Positions 18,217 to 28,415 of a DNA stretch of 29,211 bases are shown piece by piece. Both the position numbers and the translations under genes were made by a program. How positions within the stretch are numbered: the stretch's first letter is position 1; each line of letters opens with the position of its first letter. Under the pieces are notes generated by a model. The model was not told the origin of the DNA. It did not search any database and worked only from the letters and a program-made list of their open reading frames with translations. This stretch comes from a virus, in the IMG/VR virus record IMGVR_UViG_3300032073_000163, positions 1 to 29,211 of that record; one strand, written 5' to 3'.

Positions 18217-19086
18217 ATGGCACTTTGGAAGCCCAGTAACGACTCGACTTTGTTTGCGTGGTTTGACGCTGACAGTTTTTCCGCTAGAGACGGGGGAACT
18301 GCGTCCAAATGGGCAAACAAAGAAGGAACAACTGCTCGGGACATGATCGGAGGCAGTGATGCAACAACAGACCCACAACTTTGCGGATCAAGCGATTTTC
18401 TAAATGGTCGGGCTGGGGTTGAATTTGACCAAGACAGCGGCGAACTGGACATACTCCAAACCTCTAGCACGGTTGCTGACTTAGACAACCAACCGTACAC
18501 CGTGTGCCTAGTTGTCAAAGATGCAAATCAGGCGGACGTTGATTACTTTTTGTATTTCTTCGAGGGTAGCAATGTCTCCAGTTTCTTCCAAGGCGAGTTA
18601 GCATTCGGCGGCAACGTGTATCTTTACGGACAGTCGGGTGGGTTTAGTTTTAGTCCACCACAAGCCTACAGCCACATCCTGACAAGTGATGAAAAAACGG
18701 CTCTTGCAGCCGGAGCAACTCTAACCACTGTTGCCGACGGGTCCAACTTCACACCCTTTTTCAACGGCGTAGCATTGGACATTGGGCAGGATCTTCAACA
18801 AGACTCGACCACCAACGCAGCCTCGTTGGTTGTTGGTGCGTTGCAAACATTAGGCATGGATGCCACTTTGTACGAGATTGTCATCTGCCTCGGCACTGGG
18901 TCAAACGAGAATGCCAAGCGGATTGAAGGATATTTGGCACACAGGTATGCAAGAACCCTTTCAGCCACACACGAATACAAGAATCACGCCCCCACCGAGT
19001 CCCTCGAAATCTCAGGAACCTCTGGAGATATCGAAGGCGGTCTCACGCAATCAATCTCATCTGAACTAACCACAGTGAGAATCTAA
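18217..19086 (+). CDS. Putative receptor-binding/tail protein with LamG-like fold
   Basis: The 289-aa product resembles concanavalin/LamG-like lectin domains in marine phage tail proteins: an opening LFAWFDADSF...GGTASKWANKEG, the central RAGVEFDQDSGELD, and the characteristic late segment YEIVICLGTGSNENAKRIEGYLAHRYA, quoted in part as NENAKRIEGYLAHRYA, followed by HEYKNHAPTE. The ATG at 18217 follows a GGGAG and lies just after the previous TGA; an upstream in-frame ATG at 18175 would overlap. I infer that it supplies the host-binding function missing from the truncated fibre gene. Confidence 0.75.
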   Translation: MALWKPSNDSTLFAWFDADSFSARDGGTASKWANKEGTTARDMIGGSDATTDPQLCGSSDFLNGRAGVEFDQDSGELDILQTSSTVADLDNQPYTVCLVVKDANQADVDYFLYFFEGSNVSSFFQGELAFGGNVYLYGQSGGFSFSPPQAYSHILTSDEKTALAAGATLTTVADGSNFTPFFNGVALDIGQDLQQDSTTNAASLVVGALQTLGMDATLYEIVICLGTGSNENAKRIEGYLAHRYARTLSATHEYKNHAPTESLEISGTSGDIEGGLTQSISSELTTVRI

Positions 19087-19298
19087 TGGAAGAACTACTC
19101 AAGAAGCTGCACACAGGCATGTGTGAAACTCTTCTGGCCCGGATTGAGTCAGGTGAGGCGACCGCTGCTGATCTCGGCGTTGCCCGTCAGTTCCTCAAGG
19201 ATAACGGGATTGATGCATCTGCTAACAAATCAGAACCACTGGCAAACCTTGCCAGGTCTTTACCATTCGATCCCAGTATCGAGAAGGAAGCCATCTAA
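19086..19298 (+). CDS. Small terminase subunit, T7 gp18-like
   Basis: The 70-aa product has the TerS-type layout of this group: an N-terminal helix EELLKKLHTGMCETLLARIE, then ATAADLGVARQFLKDNGID, which is the typical T7/marine podovirus TerS segment, and an acidic tail. T7 gp18 is 89 aa. It directs the large subunit to phage DNA concatemers. One-base overlaps join it to the gene before and after. It is separated from TerL by about 1.6 kb of small basic genes. Confidence 0.85.
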   Translation: MEELLKKLHTGMCETLLARIESGEATAADLGVARQFLKDNGIDASANKSEPLANLARSLPFDPSIEKEAI

Positions 19299-19441
19299 TG
19301 AAGCATAAGAAAATGACTGCAAAGGATCGTCGTTTGGCGGCTCTTGCTGAACCCAAAGACAAAATCACCCAAGCCGATGTCATCGCTGGTCGAACGATGA
19401 AGATCAAGAAGGGCAAGAAGAAAAATGGAATGCGGGCCTGA
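19298..19441 (+). CDS. Tiny Lys-rich protein 1 (47 aa)
   Basis: Reading from the ATG that overlaps the TerS stop gives MKHKKMTAKDRRLAALAEPK and ends in a lysine block (IKKGKKKNGMRA). The 47-aa product is highly basic. No family is recognised. It is the first of six or seven short genes packed between TerS and TerL, where T7 keeps its spanin genes. Continuous one-to-few-base spacing supports translation as part of one operon. Confidence 0.6.
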   Translation: MKHKKMTAKDRRLAALAEPKDKITQADVIAGRTMKIKKGKKKNGMRA

Positions 19442-19442
19442 T

Positions 19443-19529
19443 ATGTATCACACCAAGCGAAAAGTCGGAAAGATGAAGTCCAAAGCTGCGGCAAAGCCAA
19501 AGAAGACCAAGCCAAAGAAAAAGGGCTGA
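19443..19529 (+). CDS. Tiny Lys-rich protein 2 (28 aa), KRKVGK motif
   Basis: The 28-aa product MYHTKRKVGKMKSKAAAKPK is followed by KTKPKKKG. About half of the residues are Lys or Arg. It shares the KRKVGK motif with the next two genes. The alternating Ala-Lys-Pro-Lys end looks like a histone-H1- or protamine-type tail. It starts one base after the preceding stop. The gene is very short, but the shared motif argues that it is real. Confidence 0.5.
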   Translation: MYHTKRKVGKMKSKAAAKPKKTKPKKKG

Positions 19530-19532
19530 TCA

Positions 19533-19712
19533 ATGGCAAAGCGTAAGGTTGGAAAGAAGGCCGAAGGTCTTACCAAGCGTCAAGAGGACACCATGAAGCG
19601 TCACTCTGTTCATCACACCAAAAAGCACATGGACATGATGCGGTCACTGATGATCAAGGGCGACACCTTTAGTCAGGCCCATAAGAAGGCCAAGAGAAAG
19701 GTCGGTAAGTAA
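19533..19712 (+). CDS. Small basic protein 3 (59 aa), KRKVGK at both ends
   Basis: The 59-aa product starts MAKRKVGKKAEGLTKRQ and ends KKAKRKVGK, with a His/Met-rich centre (HSVHHTKKHMDMMRSLMIKG) and the helix TFSQAHKKA. Having the same KRKVGK hexapeptide at both termini is unusual. The stop overlaps the next ATG by one base. It is probably a nucleic-acid-binding or virion-packaged peptide, inferred from charge only. Confidence 0.65.
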   Translation: MAKRKVGKKAEGLTKRQEDTMKRHSVHHTKKHMDMMRSLMIKGDTFSQAHKKAKRKVGK

Positions 19713-19882
19713 TGGCGAAGCGTAAGGTCGGAAAGAAGAAGCCGATCCCAACCGACAAGGCTTTGTATTCCAGAGTTAAGTCGGAAGCCAAACGTAAGTT
19801 CAAGGTGTACCCGTCTGCCTATGCCAACGCTTGGCTGGTGCGAACCTACAAGAAGCGTGGCGGAAAGTACCGGATGGGCTAA
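19712..19882 (+). CDS. Small basic protein 4 (56 aa), YPSAYANAW family
   Basis: The 56-aa product starts MAKRKVGKKKPIPTDKALYS and contains KFKVYPSAYANAWLVRTYKK followed by RGGKYR. The KxxPSAYAxxWxxxxYKKxGGxY pattern recurs in small proteins of cyanophages and other aquatic viruses, as I recall; the function is not known. It shares the N-terminal MAKRKVGKK with the preceding gene, so the two either arose by partial duplication or converge on a common localisation or DNA-binding tag. One-base overlaps join it to both neighbours. Confidence 0.75.
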   Translation: MAKRKVGKKKPIPTDKALYSRVKSEAKRKFKVYPSAYANAWLVRTYKKRGGKYRMG

Positions 19883-20385
19883 TGAGTTGTCCTGAATGCA
19901 ATAAGAGAGCGTCTGACGAAAAGAAGGCTCTTCTGGACTGCAAGGGCAACTGTGAAAAGCTCAACACCAAGGCCCAGCGTCTATCTCTGGTAGTCGCAGT
20001 CCTTGGCACGGTTCTCGGCAAAGAGACCCTTGATATGGCCTTGGGCTTGGAGTCAACTCTCAATCAACTGGCGGCAAAGACCGAAGACACCGGCGCAGCT
20101 CTGGCGTACTCTCCGCCCGTCATCGTCCCACCCAGTTCTCCAAAGGCTCCTGATCCCAGACCCTCAGGGTTGTCCTACATGAGTGCTGCGGTTGAGCGTG
20201 AAGACTCCTTGCTGTCTTATGTCCCACCCCTGACAACCTTTGAGTGGACTGAGCCAGACCCAGAGTTGTTCACTTGGCAGGATGACACATCGATACAAAA
20301 CTCAATGATTGTTCCGTTCCGCAACGGGTTGTTCCTGTTCGGACTCGCATATCTTGGACACCAGCAAAGGCGTAGAAATGGCTAG
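19882..20385 (+). CDS. Putative membrane protein with N-terminal Cys pairs
   Basis: The 167-aa product starts MSCPECNKRAS and has a second pair at DCKGNC, giving two Cys pairs that could bind a metal. A hydrophobic segment follows (LSLVVAVLGTVLG, about residues 34-46), then a Pro-rich linker (YSPPVIVPPSSPKAPDPRPS) and a C-terminal hydrophobic stretch (VPFRNGLFLFGLAYLG). It sits where T7 encodes Rz/Rz1 spanins (between genes 18 and 19), but shows no signal peptide, lipobox or long periplasmic coiled coil, so I do not call it a spanin. The start is fixed by the one-base overlap with the previous TAA. Confidence 0.65.
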   Translation: MSCPECNKRASDEKKALLDCKGNCEKLNTKAQRLSLVVAVLGTVLGKETLDMALGLESTLNQLAAKTEDTGAALAYSPPVIVPPSSPKAPDPRPSGLSYMSAAVEREDSLLSYVPPLTTFEWTEPDPELFTWQDDTSIQNSMIVPFRNGLFLFGLAYLGHQQRRRNG

Positions 20386-20632
20386 ACACTCAGGCGGACT
20401 CACCAAGTGGTTCAAAGAAGACTGGATCGACCTACGGACTGGTAAAAAGTGCGGGCGTTCTGGCGAGGAGATGTCCACTCGGAAGTACCCAGTATGCCGT
20501 CCCCGCAAGATTGCCAACCGGATGACCAAGAAAGAAAAGCAATCGGTCATCGCTAAGAAGACTGGTCCCGGTAAAGTCAAGTACCCCATCACTGCTGCTG
20601 GTCGCCGTAGGATGAAGATTAGGAAGGCGTAA
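20378..20632 (+). CDS. DUF5872-like small basic protein
   Basis: The 84-aa product reads GGLTKWFKEDWIDLRTGKKC, then GRSGEE...RKYPVCRPRKIANRM, KKEKQSVIAKK and ITAAGRRRMKIRKA. This layout (LTKWFKExWVDI, a Cys-Gly-Arg unit, YPxCRPxxxA, then a basic tail) is what I know as DUF5872, a family in cyanophages and large viruses without assigned function. The two cysteines may bind a metal. It overlaps the preceding gene by 8 bases and ends one base before the next. Confidence 0.75.
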   Translation: MARHSGGLTKWFKEDWIDLRTGKKCGRSGEEMSTRKYPVCRPRKIANRMTKKEKQSVIAKKTGPGKVKYPITAAGRRRMKIRKA

Positions 20633-20633
20633 G

Positions 20634-20891
20634 ATGGCTGAATACAAAGGCAAGAAAGTACCTTTGAACAAGGTCATGCGGATTCGCAAAGACGAGCCGG
20701 GGCATGGCAGAAAGAAGTCCAAGGTCTTCGTCAAGGATGGTGGTAAAGTCAAGAAGGTGATGTTCGGAGATCCCAACATGAAGATCCGAAAGAATGAGCC
20801 GGGGCGTAGAGCCAATTTCCGCGCTCGTCACAACTGCGACAACCCCGGCCCCAAGACCAAGCCTCGGTACTGGGCATGTAAGACTTGGTGA
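20634..20891 (+). CDS. Conserved marine-phage basic protein (RARHNCDNPGP motif)
   Basis: The 85-aa product contains KVKKVMFGDPNMKIRKNEPG, RRANFRARHNCDNPGPKTKP and ends RYWACKTW. This C-terminal pattern is strongly conserved in short proteins of many marine myo- and podoviruses, from memory; no function is established. Two Cys and a His could coordinate a metal. There is a partial internal repeat: MRIRKDEPGHGRK near residues 15-27 echoes MKIRKNEPGRRAN near residues 49-61. The TGA overlaps the TerL ATG by one base. Confidence 0.75.
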   Translation: MAEYKGKKVPLNKVMRIRKDEPGHGRKKSKVFVKDGGKVKKVMFGDPNMKIRKNEPGRRANFRARHNCDNPGPKTKPRYWACKTW

Positions 20892-22549
20892 TGGACGAGC
20901 GAATCCACGACTTTCGGAACTTCTTGTATCTGGCGTGGGAGCAGCTCCGTCTGCCGGACCCTACGCCTGTCCAATATGACATCGCGGACTACCTCCAGAA
21001 TGGACCCAAGCGGTCCTGCATCATGGCGTTCCGTGGGGTCGGCAAGTCTTGGATCACCTCCGCCTTTGTCTGCCACCAGCTCTTGCTGGACCCCCAGAGG
21101 AACATCTTGGTGGTCTCAGCGTCCAAGGCCCGAGCCGATGACTTCTCCACGTTTACCCTGAGGTTGATCTCAGAGATGCCCATGCTTCAGCATCTCAGAC
21201 CCAGAGAAAACCAGAGGAACTCCAAGATCGCCTTTGACGTTGGCCCCGCGACCGCCAGTCATGCTCCCTCCGTGACATCCCGAGGTATCACGGGACAGAT
21301 CACAGGGGCAAGAGCGGACCTGATCGTGGCTGACGATGTGGAGTCCCTGAACAACTCTGCGACCCAGACCATGAGGGACAAACTGTCCGAGTCCATCAAG
21401 GAGTTCGACGCGGTTCTCAAACCAGATGGTCGCGTGGTCTACCTCGGAACACCTCAGTCCGAACAATCCATCTACAACGTGCTGCCCCAGCGTGGATACG
21501 AGACCCGTATATGGCCCGCTAGAATCCCTCCTGAGAAGCAGCAGAAAAAGATGGAGGATACCTTGGCTCCGATGGTCAAGCGTCTCTCAGGGGATTCTAG
21601 GGACGATTACGGCAAACCTACAGATCCCCAGCGATTCGACGAGCATGACCTGCTGGAGCGTGAGGCTAGTTACGGTCGCTCTGGGTTTGCCCTCCAGTTC
21701 ATGCTGGATACGAGCCTGAGTGACCAGAGCCGATATCCGCTCAAACTCAGTGACCTTGTGGTCATGCACCTGAACCCTGAGACAGCTCCGGAGAAGGCCA
21801 TCTGGGCCGCTTCCCCCGATCTGATCTGGAAGGATCTCCCATGCGTGGGGTTCGCCGGAGACCGGTACTACCGACCAATGCAGGTACAGGGCGACTGGAA
21901 GCCCTACAGCGGCTCCGTGATGGCAATCGACCCCTCGGGTCGGGGTGCAGACGAAACCGCTTACGCGGTCGCCAAGACCCACCACGGGCAAATCCTGATT
22001 ACAGCCGCAGGTGGACTTCCAGGTGGATACGAAGAGGGAACCCTGCAACGGCTGGCGGACATCGCCAAGGAACAGAAGGTCAACAAGATCATCATCGAAT
22101 CCAACTTCGGTGACGGAATGTTCACCAAGCTGTTGACCCCATACGTCACCAAGACCTACCCCGTGACTCTGGAAGAGGTCCGACACTCCACCCAGAAGGA
22201 ACGCCGGATCATCGACACCCTCGAACCCGTGATGAACCAGCACAGGCTCATCGTGGACTACGGGGTGCTGATGGATGACTACGAGTCAACCAAGGGCAAA
22301 CCCCAAGAGATGGCCCTGAAGTACACCTTGGCCTACCAGATGACCAGAGTCACCAAGGACAGGGGAGCCTTAAAGCATGATGACCGCCTCGATGTCCTCG
22401 CAATGGCTGTCCAATATTGGGTAGACCATATGGCCCAAGACCGAGACAAAGCCATCTCCAGAGCCAAAGACCAAGCCTTCAGGGATGAATTGGAGAAGTT
22501 CACCACCCAAGTCATCGGGGGTAAACCAAAGTCCAACTCTTGGTTCTAA
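20891..22549 (+). CDS. Large terminase subunit, T7 gp19-like
   Basis: The 552-aa product is the packaging motor and nuclease. The ATPase domain shows the Walker A FRGVGKSW (residues 48-54 region), LVVSASKARADDFS, the Walker B LIVADDVES (about residues 144-152) and YLGTPQSEQS as the coupling motif. The nuclease domain shows AIDPSGRGADETAYA (Asp347), IIIESNFGDGMF, and HDDRLDVLAMAV (Asp498, Asp501). T7 gp19 is 586 aa. I start at the ATG that overlaps the previous stop (TGATG); in-frame TTG and GTG codons lie immediately upstream. The region is distinctly CCC/CTG-rich compared with the structural genes. Confidence 0.96.
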   Translation: MDERIHDFRNFLYLAWEQLRLPDPTPVQYDIADYLQNGPKRSCIMAFRGVGKSWITSAFVCHQLLLDPQRNILVVSASKARADDFSTFTLRLISEMPMLQHLRPRENQRNSKIAFDVGPATASHAPSVTSRGITGQITGARADLIVADDVESLNNSATQTMRDKLSESIKEFDAVLKPDGRVVYLGTPQSEQSIYNVLPQRGYETRIWPARIPPEKQQKKMEDTLAPMVKRLSGDSRDDYGKPTDPQRFDEHDLLEREASYGRSGFALQFMLDTSLSDQSRYPLKLSDLVVMHLNPETAPEKAIWAASPDLIWKDLPCVGFAGDRYYRPMQVQGDWKPYSGSVMAIDPSGRGADETAYAVAKTHHGQILITAAGGLPGGYEEGTLQRLADIAKEQKVNKIIIESNFGDGMFTKLLTPYVTKTYPVTLEEVRHSTQKERRIIDTLEPVMNQHRLIVDYGVLMDDYESTKGKPQEMALKYTLAYQMTRVTKDRGALKHDDRLDVLAMAVQYWVDHMAQDRDKAISRAKDQAFRDELEKFTTQVIGGKPKSNSWF

Positions 22550-24246: not shown

Positions 24247-25257
24247 ATGACTAACGCTACAACTAGCCGCCTCGATTCCAACATTCAGCTGTTCCCGTCC
24301 CCGGTTACGCCCCGCGAAGCCTTAAGCCTAGCGGACCTGGAATGGGGGATCGATTCGGTTCCCGTATGGTCCGGAACCCCTAACGTATTCGGACACCCCG
24401 ATGTTGAGAATGTCCGCCGAATCCCCGACCAATACGAATTACGCCGGGACGATACCGGCGGGCGCTTGGGGACGGTCTCGGATAAATACCATCCAATCGA
24501 GAATGGAACCCTTGCCGACATCATCGGCGAATCATTCGGGGCGGAACCGTCCATAGTCGCGGCGGCATGCTGGAACGGTGGACGGCGGGTAATGCTTCAA
24601 GCCAAGACCGGCGCGCATGATATCGCCGGGGTAGATGCGAATGAATTTTACGCTACGTTCTTAGCATCCCATGACGGGGGCGGGGCGGTTCGGTTCATTC
24701 CGTCCACCGTCAGAATGGAATGCATGAACCAGGTGAACGGGTTCATTCGGGCGGCGGATGCTATGGGCGGCGTGGTCCGAATGTCTCATGTAGATATCGG
24801 CGACCGTTCCACAATTGCCGATCTATTCGCCGGGGCTATTTCAAACGTGGACCGAGCTAACGCCGCCACCGTGGAACGTCTTGAAGACTACGCGAATCGC
24901 CCCGTTATGTCGGATACGGTTCGGGACTACATCGACCGTATAGCGTGGGAAATTGCCACGCCCCAAACGCGTCAGCTCTTAGGCAATACCGCCGGAACCG
25001 TAGCCGACAATCTAAAAGACCCCGCGACACAAAAGGCCGTTAGGCGGTTCGCCGGGGTTCGGGATTCCATGATGGAGCTGTACGCCTCATGCGATGCGGG
25101 GAACATGGCCCCGGCGGTCCGAGGTACTCGGTTCCACATGATGCAAGCCGCGACCGAATACCTCACACACAACGCGAACCGCTCCGATTCGTCTATTGTG
25201 GACGGTGAGACCGCGAAGCAAACGCGACTCGCGGTAGAACTCGCGGGAACCATCTAA
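24247..25257 (+). CDS. DUF932 family phage/plasmid protein
   Basis: The 336-aa product matches the DUF932 pattern: RRDDTGGRLGTVSDKYHPIE near residue 75, CWNGGRRVMLQAKTGAHDIA, then FYATFLASHDGGGAVRFIPS and VRMECMNQVNGFIRAADA, the conserved core in which a strand with SHDG is followed by R(M/V)xCMN. Such proteins are widespread in phages, plasmids and prophages; their function is not established. It is expressed from its own promoter P2 and ends before its own terminator. Codon use (CCG, CGG, CTA, GCC) differs clearly from the virion genes, suggesting separate acquisition or a different selection regime. Confidence 0.8.
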   Translation: MTNATTSRLDSNIQLFPSPVTPREALSLADLEWGIDSVPVWSGTPNVFGHPDVENVRRIPDQYELRRDDTGGRLGTVSDKYHPIENGTLADIIGESFGAEPSIVAAACWNGGRRVMLQAKTGAHDIAGVDANEFYATFLASHDGGGAVRFIPSTVRMECMNQVNGFIRAADAMGGVVRMSHVDIGDRSTIADLFAGAISNVDRANAATVERLEDYANRPVMSDTVRDYIDRIAWEIATPQTRQLLGNTAGTVADNLKDPATQKAVRRFAGVRDSMMELYASCDAGNMAPAVRGTRFHMMQAATEYLTHNANRSDSSIVDGETAKQTRLAVELAGTI

Positions 25258-26455: not shown

Positions 26456-27265
26456 ATGCCCCAAGAAGAAGTAACCCTCGGATACCTCAGCGACTTTGTT
26501 TACCGGACAGAGTGGGCGCACACCAAAGGAGAAGTCACGGCTCTTCGCAACAGTGAAGAGGTTGTGTCATACTTCGATGGAGATACCATCGTGTCCGACA
26601 TCAGACCCATCCACATCAGCGAGTTCGTGTCCACCCTCAGAGACTCAGGGAACAGCAACGGCACAATCAATCGTAAGCTCGCGGCTCTCTCGAAGATGCT
26701 GACGGTTGCCTTGCGTAACGAGTGGATTGACACCAAGCCTCACATCCCGAGACAGAAGGAAGCGTCTCACCGTATCCGTTGGATTACTCCTGATGAGGAG
26801 TTGGTGATGACTCAGCATTCTGACCCAAGGTTCGCCAAGTTGTGGACATTGTTGATCGATACTGGACTTCGGGTTGGAGAAGCATTGCGTCTTGAGCCGA
26901 TGGATATTGACATGGGGCAGAACCGTATTCATGTCTGGGAGAACAAGGCTGACAAGCCACGGTCTATCCCGATGACCAAGCGTGTGCGTTCGATTCTCGA
27001 TGGTCATGACTTCATGGACATCACACAGGATCAGGTAACATACCAATGGAACAAGATGAGGAAAGCGATGGGTCTCTTGGATGACTCACACTTTGTTCCT
27101 CACATCTGTCGCCACACCTTTGCATCGCGGTTGGTGCAGCGAGGTGTTGGTATCACTGTGGTGCAGCAGCTCTGCGGTCATAAGACCTTGGAGATTACGC
27201 TGCGTTATGCTCACCTTGCCCCATCAAATCTGGATGAGGCAATCAAGAAACTGGAGGAAGAATGA
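26456..27265 (+). CDS. int: Tyrosine recombinase / phage integrase
   Basis: The 269-aa product has an N-terminal SAM-like core-binding domain (about residues 5-100, with NSNGTINRKLAALSKMLTVA) and a C-terminal catalytic domain with all expected residues: Arg139 in DTGLRVGEALRL, the beta-hairpin lysine around NKADKPRSIPM (Lys164 or Lys167), His216-x-x-Arg219 in PHICRHTFASRL, His242 in CGHKTLEITLRYAHL and the nucleophile Tyr251. It would integrate and excise the genome at an att site. ATAGGAG lies before the ATG. The gene starts an operon of five genes that ends with the phage RNA polymerase, the place where integrases also lie in integrase-bearing marine T7-like phages. Its small size and lack of a clear extra arm-binding domain fit simple integrases. 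Confidence 0.94.
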   Translation: MPQEEVTLGYLSDFVYRTEWAHTKGEVTALRNSEEVVSYFDGDTIVSDIRPIHISEFVSTLRDSGNSNGTINRKLAALSKMLTVALRNEWIDTKPHIPRQKEASHRIRWITPDEELVMTQHSDPRFAKLWTLLIDTGLRVGEALRLEPMDIDMGQNRIHVWENKADKPRSIPMTKRVRSILDGHDFMDITQDQVTYQWNKMRKAMGLLDDSHFVPHICRHTFASRLVQRGVGITVVQQLCGHKTLEITLRYAHLAPSNLDEAIKKLEEE

Positions 27266-27645
27266 ATCATCGCACTGAATTGGACCGCTTCAAACGAGCA
27301 GAAGCACAAACCAAGTTGGCATCTTGCCACGTTGACTGGGAGTTCTACTGCTCGGCTACCAAGAAAGATTGGATCATCAGTATGACCATTGGTGATACCG
27401 ATTCTCCGACCGCATTGATCGATACCCGTGTCCAAGAATGGAACGTCATTGCCACCACTGGCGATACCACAGTTCCGTACCATTGCAAAGAGACTTGCCG
27501 CAAGGTGATGGATTCTTTCTTTTGGTATTCTTTTGACAAGCCTTCGATCCACATGGATCAAGTTCATCCCGGTGTTTTCCAACAGCTGATGTCAACCGCC
27601 AGACGCATGGCTCATGATGATCCCGTTTGGGGAGGAGAAAAATGA
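27262..27645 (+). CDS. Hypothetical protein in integrase-methyltransferase operon
   Basis: The 127-aa product begins MNHRTELDRFKRAEAQTKLA and has a beta-rich middle (DWEFYCSATKKDWIISMTIG, DTRVQEWNVIATTGD) and a C-terminal aromatic region (MDSFFWYSFDKPS). No family is recognised. It overlaps the integrase stop and the methyltransferase start by 4 bases each (ATGA), so it is translated with them. Possible roles include a partner of the recombinase or methyltransferase; nothing in the sequence decides. Confidence 0.75.
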   Translation: MNHRTELDRFKRAEAQTKLASCHVDWEFYCSATKKDWIISMTIGDTDSPTALIDTRVQEWNVIATTGDTTVPYHCKETCRKVMDSFFWYSFDKPSIHMDQVHPGVFQQLMSTARRMAHDDPVWGGEK

Positions 27646-28415
27646 ATGACTGCGTTTCTCATTTGTCCTTGTGTGCTGGTATCGGGGGAATTGACCTTGG
27701 ACTGCGAAGAGTGGTCAGAAATCTCAACACCGTGGCTATGGTGGAGAGGGAAGCCTTCGCCATCTCAAACTTGGTGCAGAAGATGGAAGAAGGAGAGTTG
27801 GATTCGTGTCCTATCTACGCGGACTTGTTGCGGTTCCCTTGGCAGCGTTTTCGAGGCCGAGTGGATATCGTCTCTGGCGGATTCCCATGTACGCCGTTCT
27901 CGGTCGCTGGTAGTCGCAAAGCCACCGAAGACGAGCGACACCTCTGGCCCTACATACGCTCAGGGGTTGCTGTTCTCCAACCTAGAGTCTGCTTCTTCGA
28001 GAACGTCGATGGAATCGTCACCGCCCCCTCAGAGGGATATCACTCAGTTCTCCACCATGTCCTCAGCGACTTGGAAGAAATGGGTTTCAGCACAACGGCA
28101 GGACAGTTCTCAGCGCAGGAAGTCGGCGCACCCCAAATCAGAAAGAGATGGTTCATCCTCGCTGTGGCCCACCGCGACATCGAGGGATTGGAAAGATGGG
28201 ACGAACCCATCGATGAAAGCTCCGACGAATGGCCTGTTGGGCCGGGCTGTCCCCAGAGACCCGACGAGCCGCCCCGGACAATTGAATCCGACTTGGGTGG
28301 ACGGGTTGATGGGATTCCCAACAGGATGGACAGACTTAGAGCATTGGGGAACGCGGTAGTACCCGCAGTCGCTGCAAAAGCATTTAGTACCCTTTGGTGG
28401 AGGCTACACAAATGA
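27642..28415 (+). CDS. DNA (cytosine-5-)-methyltransferase
   Basis: The 257-aa product carries the C5-methyltransferase motifs in order: motif I LSLCAGIGGIDLGL (residues 8-21), motif IV SGGFPCTPFS with catalytic Cys83, motif VI FFENVDG (Glu120-Asn-Val), motif VIII QIRKRWFILA (165-174) and motif X RLRALGNAVVPAVAAKAF (from 231). The region between VIII and X, which holds the target-recognition part, is only about 60 residues, so the enzyme is small. Its likely task is methylating phage DNA against host restriction. No matching endonuclease gene is nearby. GGAGGAG precedes the ATG at 27642. The last third also reads well in a second frame (see findings). Confidence 0.93.
   Translation: MNDCVSHLSLCAGIGGIDLGLRRVVRNLNTVAMVEREAFAISNLVQKMEEGELDSCPIYADLLRFPWQRFRGRVDIVSGGFPCTPFSVAGSRKATEDERHLWPYIRSGVAVLQPRVCFFENVDGIVTAPSEGYHSVLHHVLSDLEEMGFSTTAGQFSAQEVGAPQIRKRWFILAVAHRDIEGLERWDEPIDESSDEWPVGPGCPQRPDEPPRTIESDLGGRVDGIPNRMDRLRALGNAVVPAVAAKAFSTLWWRLHK

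Follow-up and report, generated by a model that had tools for sequence, protein, structure and literature searches.

The DNA analysed here (the window) is the whole of IMG/VR virus record IMGVR_UViG_3300032073_000163, a fragment of 29,211 bases, and the subject is a cassette of seven genes, g1 to g7, which lies in it between TerS and TerL (Table 1). According to Pfam, the gene set of the window is that of a T7-like phage: portal (PF12236), T7-type scaffold (PF05396), gp10A-like capsid protein (PF21703), T7-type tail fibre, TerS and TerL. The six short basic open reading frames (ORFs) which an earlier note on this DNA had placed between TerS and TerL were all present: the products of g1, g2, g3, g4, g6 and g7, of 28–85 amino acids, are rich in lysine and arginine, with isoelectric points (pI) of 10.7–11.1 and net charges of +12 to +20 each. 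The seventh gene, g5, is acidic, sits in mid-cassette and had been omitted from the gene list of that note. In T7, the genes between 18 and 19 are the spanins. The cassette occupies the same slot with its six Lys/Arg-rich products, and no match to lysis families was returned for g1–g7 by PHROG or Pfam.

Table 1. The cassette, its flanking genes and the KRKVGK copies (positions in the window).
Feature	Positions	Strand	Description	Basis
TerS	19086..19298	+	T7 gp18-type DNA packaging protein, flank	PF11123, 2.9e-18
g1	19298..19441	+	47 aa, net +12; EF-hand-like loop A.P.DKIT.AD; family also in HTVC106P (L004)	ORF, own HMM
g2	19443..19529	+	28 aa, net +13; KRKVGK at residues 5-10	ORF, own HMM
g3	19533..19712	+	59 aa; F3 family (phrog_31838); His-rich stretch, conserved R-x-(V/K)-G-K ending	PHROG match
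g4	19712..19882	+	56 aa; F1 module, N-terminal half of DUF5872	PF19197 5.6e-11, profile 1-39 of 116
g5	19882..20385	+	167 aa; acidic (pI 5.2), outside basic group	ORF
g6	20378..20632	+	84 aa; F2 module, C-terminal half of DUF5872	PF19197 4.3e-7, profile 52-95 of 116
g7	20634..20891	+	85 aa; F4 module (phrog_7595; C-terminal domain of phrog_9979 and ICP1 gp125)	PHROG; AlphaFold2
TerL	20891..22549	+	T7 type, flank	T7 RNase H domain PF22530, 1.4e-39
KRKVGK in g2	19455..19472	+	within g2	
KRKVGK in g3, first	19539..19556	+	N-terminus (MAKRKVGKK), residues 3-8	
KRKVGK in g3, second	19692..19709	+	C-terminus, last six residues	
KRKVGK in g4	19718..19735	+	N-terminus (MAKRKVGKK)	

The entire cassette was found in six IMG/VR contigs (L009, L011, L012, L013, L014 and L045), and only its end in L010; a search for near-identical phage DNA returned none. 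All the reading frames of the cassette were intact in the close relatives. The ratio of non-synonymous to synonymous polymorphism (pN/pS), obtained from four distinct sequences (six pairs), was 0.027 for g1, 0.067 for g2, 0.150 for g3, 0.177 for g4, 0.191 for g5, 0.187 for g6, 0.034 for g7 and 0 for TerS. Because the ratios are low (0.03–0.19) and all frames are kept, the cassette ORFs are real genes under purifying selection in close relatives; the frame loss and the neutrality that the earlier note had named as arguments against its own proposal were not seen. More distant relatives, as judged by TerL (about 60% identity), keep at most g7 right before TerL (L016–L019, L037), or nothing recognisable: the cassette is an optional insert.

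Concerning the protein families, g3, g4, g6 and g7 belong to recurrent families without known function (F3, F1, F2 and F4, respectively). The products of g4 and g6 scored 43.5 and 31.0 bits against DUF5872 (PF19197; curated cut-off 27.5) and correspond to its successive halves; in the Pfam model both halves are in one protein, whereas here they are separate genes split by g5. The g3 product matched phrog_31838; for g7 there were two matches, to phrog_7595 and to the C-terminal region of phrog_9979. All four families were found in at least 600 IMG/VR stretches each, from which the best 80 loci per family were kept, and this bears out the suggestion that at least three families of the cassette recur in aquatic phages. 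There was no Pfam or PHROG match for g1; a hidden Markov model (HMM) of its own matched 58 loci and overlapped with an EF-hand-like family in 55 ORFs, while the HMM of g2 matched 13 loci. NCBIfam gave nothing for g1–g7 at E up to 0.01. Acidic g5 carries N-terminal Cys pairs and is conserved in close relatives, without a family match in Pfam or PHROG.

The F1 and F2 modules travel together: the g6 family was present in 77 of the best 80 g4-seeded loci, and the g4 family in 79 of the best 80 g6-seeded ones, counts that refer to top matches rather than to a random sample and to loci not de-duplicated by contig. Around this pair the other families are reshuffled (F4-F1-F2, DUF6321-F1-F2, F3-F1-F2-DUF6321, F1-F2-F4 and further orders), and in unrelated marine phages the same modules occur as separate genes in shuffled order. 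In P-SCSP2, F1, an EF-hand-like gene, F3, F2 and DUF6321 are consecutive between the scaffold and the major capsid protein; in CRP-2 the order F4-F1-F2 is found some 2 kb ahead of TerS; in C72C1 an F1-F2 pair precedes the portal gene, with three ORFs between; and MED4-117 has a module set upstream of the coat gene. In the T4-like phage S-BM3, a protein composed of F2, F1 and DUF6321 is encoded between gp16 and gp17, an interval known as a hot spot in cyanomyoviruses (PMC3037559). The g7 product is 71% identical to its counterpart in Roseobacter phage CRP-901. Each of the 1034 distinct module domains measured, from seven families, had a positive net charge. A DUF5872 protein has also been annotated in the haptophyte virus CpV-BQ1 (PMC12085832), and the link of this family to giant viruses is based on the Pfam model and this one annotated record.

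In T4, gp21 cleaves after L/I-x-E, and the capsid-targeting leaders have 10–19 residues, as described in PMC9026906. In marine T4-like phages, the modules lie within longer proteins. The T4-like set comprised homologues obtained with S-BM3 and C48C1 queries, plus isolates; membership was by query, not by marker genes or contig-by-contig checks, and the homologues within the sets share ancestry. The linkers preceding the modules were compared with 1000 shuffles for motifs ending at most 8 residues before, or 4 after, the module start. This interval was widened by 4 residues after a first look, the module start having initially been placed a few residues late, which cut the motif; control motifs were run alongside. 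Of 28 distinct g7-type linkers, 24 had [LI]xE where the module starts (shuffle mean 7.7, maximum 16), as did 21 of 34 g4-type linkers (mean 5.0, maximum 12) and 11 of 46 DUF6321-type linkers (mean 3.9, maximum 10). None of the g7-type controls ([AST]xE, [VF]xE, [KRDN]xE, [LI]xD, [LI]xQ and [LI]xK) was enriched; the g4-type controls [AST]xE (16/34; shuffle mean 8.9, maximum 19) and [VF]xE (9/34; mean 4.0, maximum 12) were above the mean and inside the shuffle range.

A pattern of [LI]xE, up to three residues and (A)EYxG occurred in 73 of the 86 g7-type ORFs of the T4-like set, versus 10 of 201 others. The leaders of g7-type proteins, such as MKKFKQYIDE, MKTFKEYE and MKTFREFTEE, resemble the T4 class of capsid-targeting sequences (CTS). 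The mature g7-type peptide is predicted to start with AEYQGKKV, and g7 of the window starts with M-AEYKGKKV; g7 begins exactly where the cleaved product of its T4-like homologues is predicted to begin. The window proteins begin at the module itself, with no capsid-targeting leader. No protease family was found among the nine window proteins scanned, head genes included, a result which does not extend to the rest of the genome, as the record is a fragment.

Some modules are joined to a prohead protease itself. L345 and L356 encode fusions of the g7 domain with a prohead protease of the XkdF type, and L198 a fusion of F1+F2 with XkdF. The predicted procapsid protease of phage ICP1, gp125 (PMC9040626, PMC7567579), encoded at L547:13678-14514, consists of an XkdF part (7.5e-10) and a C-terminal domain homologous to g7 (6.1e-20), and so offers a genetically tractable homologue. 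In L171, DUF6321, F2 and F1 are joined to a Peptidase_S78 match scoring just below the cut-off (20.8 versus 21 bits). An HMM built from the protease fusions found no further ones in the searched loci. Unlike gp125 and the other XkdF-type proteases (phrog_9979), g7 has no Peptidase_S78_2 domain in Pfam and shares with them only the C-terminal domain.

Published virion proteomes were also consulted. A scan of the S-CREM2 genome gave exactly two module proteins, gp160 (F1+F2) and gp137 (DUF6321, between TerS and TerL). Both are in the virion list, which has 52 phage proteins overall: Table 3 of PMC10665884 gives 7 unique peptides (13.1% coverage) for ORF160 and 4 (4.1%) for ORF137. The authors of that paper mention possible contaminants among the regulatory proteins detected. 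Another S-CREM2 protein encoded between TerS and TerL, gp136 (L379:3302-4015; pI 10.0; CTS-like start MQTFSMFFSE), is in the same proteome and has no module match; it is a candidate for a further internal head protein. No virion proteome of P-SCSP2 was found in its paper, and a published proteome of Flavobacterium "immuto" phages was sought and not found.

The AlphaFold2 model of g7 was compact and of high confidence (predicted local distance difference test, pLDDT, 90.4; predicted template modelling score, pTM, 0.76), comprising a beta part along with two helices that end in a conserved W-(S/A)-C-K-x-W. Its fold search returned nothing from the PDB below E 0.001, nor any VIA row reaching Z 2 among 100 chains; small SH3-like DNA-binding folds (Sac7d, Cren7) appeared only as Foldseek rows with E 4.6 and 8.9. 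Among viral predicted structures, g7 matched phage ChaB and XkdF proteins (7e-10 to 2e-9), ICP1 ORF125 (4.4e-3) and longer uncharacterised proteins. In the model of an F2+F1+DUF6321 fusion (pLDDT 70.1), the F2 and F1 parts were predicted as well folded (block pLDDT up to 98), with a large share of the remainder predicted poorly; its fold search was uninformative (best VIA Z 3.4). Sequence searches against solved structures gave nothing for F1 or F2; the two zinc-finger chains returned for F3 (E 0.2 and 0.84) and the Erlin-2 and sensor protein chains returned for F4 (A5) (E 0.62–0.9) were rejected.

It seems reasonable to interpret that the modules are likely to be head-internal proteins in general, because of the [L/I]xE sites, the CTS-like leaders, the protease fusions, the detection in S-CREM2 virions, the recurrent cassettes beside head genes and the uniform positive charge. 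For the phage of the window, we consider it probable, with somewhat less assurance, that the cassette genes g1–g4, g6 and g7 encode small proteins of the head interior, which associate with DNA and are packaged along with the genome. As its main role, genome condensation is consistent with the charge and may be entertained as a possibility, somewhat short of an even one.

In the course of events that we infer for this T7-like phage, from timing and packaging to DNA contact and ejection, the cassette proteins would be made late and would enter or line the prohead interior, where they would remain in the capsid with the packaged DNA, their Lys/Arg charge contacting it; some may be ejected with it. 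The same modules would reach the head in different ways. In T4-like phages they follow capsid-targeting-like leaders with [L/I]xE sites, from which the prohead protease would free them; ICP1 and a few contigs have the module fused to the protease itself; and here they are encoded next to the packaging genes as stand-alone genes, which would yield the mature form directly. Entry into the prohead without a leader might occur by carriage on DNA, by contact with the scaffold or by contact with the portal.

The closest known parallel is with the internal proteins of T4, which are basic, are packaged at about 1000 molecules, touch DNA phosphate through lysines and in some cases counter restriction, according to PMC3012670 and PMC9026906. 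Like IPI, IPII, IPIII and Alt, the window proteins are small and basic, and their marine T4-like relatives have CTS-like leaders and [L/I]xE sites. Unlike the T4 proteins, those of the window lack a leader, and among the scanned window proteins there was no match to a prohead protease; moreover, the modules are common to several phage types, and an algal giant virus has an annotated DUF5872 protein. The dinoflagellate/viral nucleoprotein (DVNP), a basic protein of the virions of marine giant viruses for which DNA binding has been proposed (PMC11953307), offers an analogy only, as the Pfam scan returned no DVNP match for the cassette proteins.

Several observations weigh against this interpretation. 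The virion evidence comes from homologues in S-CREM2 and S-SZBM1 rather than from this phage or a T7-like relative. In S-SZBM1, the only module protein, SSZBM1_192, which is of the DUF6321 type, has the CTS-like start MKTFKQYITE and is encoded between TerS and TerL, is missing from the 30 proteins detected (Table 1 of its proteome study). Among S-CREM2 proteins without structural assignment, a CTS-like start was found in 5 of 9 detected versus 5 of 24 undetected, a weak difference (Fisher p 0.068) not used as proof, drawn from 33 coding sequences of one 37 kb stretch. The [LI]xE motif showed no clear enrichment for F2 (g6-type; 4/24) or DUF5824 (5/20), and in DUF6321-type linkers [VF]xE was enriched too (17/46; shuffle maximum 13). 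Protease fusions are rare (three contigs plus ICP1). As to gene neighbourhood, the module set of HTVC111P follows a lysozyme gene, a counter-example to head-gene linkage, and several module genes of T4-like phages lie among replication genes rather than head genes. The PHROG survey of 140 sampled flanking ORFs, in which 17 of the 25 commonest families were packaging, head, tail or structural, is descriptive and has no baseline. The idea of packaged peptides put forward in the earlier note is supported by homologues (prohead-protease sites at module starts, CTS-like leaders, protease fusions and the virion mass spectrometry of S-CREM2, but not that of S-SZBM1).

A wider proposal, which we make tentatively and hold to be somewhat doubtful, is that DUF5872, DUF6321, phrog_7595, phrog_31838 and possibly DUF5824 make up a mobile toolkit of head-internal nucleoprotein modules, common to T7-like, T4-like and other aquatic tailed phages and, via DUF5872, to algal giant viruses. 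It would come in one of two forms, polyproteins cut by a protease or stand-alone "pre-matured" genes, and would pack or protect the genome in the capsid. In one open-licence library, as far as its listings show, no description of such head-internal modules was found under DUF5872, DUF5824 or DUF6321, or for the CTS of cyanophages and marine phages. On the present interpretation, several protein families which are very common in marine viruses and have so far had only DUF names acquire a function that can be tested, and unrelated phages would have two routes into the head, leader plus protease in the T4-like ones and ready-made small genes in the T7-like ones. If it is true, marine T7-like phages carry abundant accessory proteins along with their DNA.

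Proteins packaged with DNA need not condense it. They could be effectors ejected to act early on the host, as T4 IPI* does against a restriction enzyme, with the charge aiding retention on DNA and exit. The T4 internal proteins are indeed basic, packaged and injected (PMC3012670, PMC9026906), g7 is predicted to be a well-folded domain, and the make-up of the cassettes is shuffled between phages as in arms-race genes. The strong conservation of the modules across unrelated phages, g7 of CRP-901 being the example, is however unlike the high diversity of the T-even internal proteins, and we regard this explanation as unlikely. It is more improbable still that the modules are cofactors of the prohead core or scaffold, which would aid assembly of scaffold, portal or protease and be mostly lost at maturation instead of staying bound to the genome. 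The fusion of the g7 domain to XkdF proteases, ICP1 gp125 included, and the place of the P-SCSP2 modules between scaffold and major capsid protein would suit such a role, whereas the presence of two module proteins in S-CREM2 virions and the basic nature of every distinct domain measured do not. Even less credit is given to cytoplasmic nucleic-acid-binding proteins, acting on RNA, ribosomes or transcription, with no virion role and an incidental adjacency to terminase: small size, strong basicity and the T4-like module genes in replication regions agree with it, and the placement of [L/I]xE, the protease fusions and the virion detection speak against it.

The earlier note had reported the sequence KRKVGK in three successive proteins, twice in one of them. 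The four copies are there, one in g2, two in g3 and one in g4, and AKRKVGK occurs three times and MAKRKVGKK twice. When the residues were permuted within each of the six proteins (2000 rounds), a 7-mer seen three times or an 8/9-mer seen twice arose in 0 of 2000, so the sharing of AKRKVGK goes beyond composition; a 6-mer seen four times does arise, from Lys runs. The codons differ among the copies. The C-terminal copy of g3 reads QRKVGK or MRKVGK in all six other contigs with the cassette, and g3-family proteins elsewhere end in RQVGK (P-SCSP2), RSVGK (HTVC111P) or RRKGK (MED4-117); on this comparison, it is the normal ending of the g3 family, R-x-(V/K)-G-K.

A pattern scan of 2.9 million contigs with ATGGCNAARMGNAARGTNGGNAAR (MAKRKVGK) matched 9, of which 6 were close relatives, and KRKVGK was accordingly rejected as a recurrent tag. 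Of the other three, L046 and L052 matched at the C-terminal end of a g3-family protein, and no corresponding ORF was seen in L047. The N-terminal MAKRKVGK is restricted to close relatives, the g3 and g4 homologues elsewhere having no N-terminal tag, and the notion of a targeting tag linked to packaging did not hold up. The N-terminal copies would rather be a local basic extension than a sorting signal, possibly duplicated from the g3 ending. A functional targeting tag common to the cargo of the packaging motor, for which the copies in g2 and at the N-termini of g3 and g4, and their retention in close relatives despite synonymous changes, could speak, is therefore most improbable, given that the sequence is missing from the same families elsewhere, that its C-terminal copy is a family ending and that the pattern is so rare. 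In L046:10777-11198 and L052:7273-7694, the F3 gene, ending in AKRKVGK, has as its neighbour a basic gene resembling DUF6321, and in one of these contigs an integrase-like ORF is close by.

Cytidylyltransferase-like proteins are encoded at L367:1093-3984, L374:13070-14860 and L379:20609-21469, two of them with T4-CTS-like starts; a DUF5824 module is present in those of L367 and L374, and an LPKVYLSG module also in that of L367. One of the two with such starts, gp154 of S-CREM2 (MKNFSSFLTE), is listed in the virion proteome of that phage. Downstream of TerL, the window encodes a DUF932 protein (PF06067, 2.7e-18; 24247-25257), a tyrosine recombinase (PF00589, 3.2e-23; 26456-27265) and a C5 cytosine methylase (PF00145, 2.3e-31; 27627-28415), and the last two suggest that this T7-like phage may be temperate.

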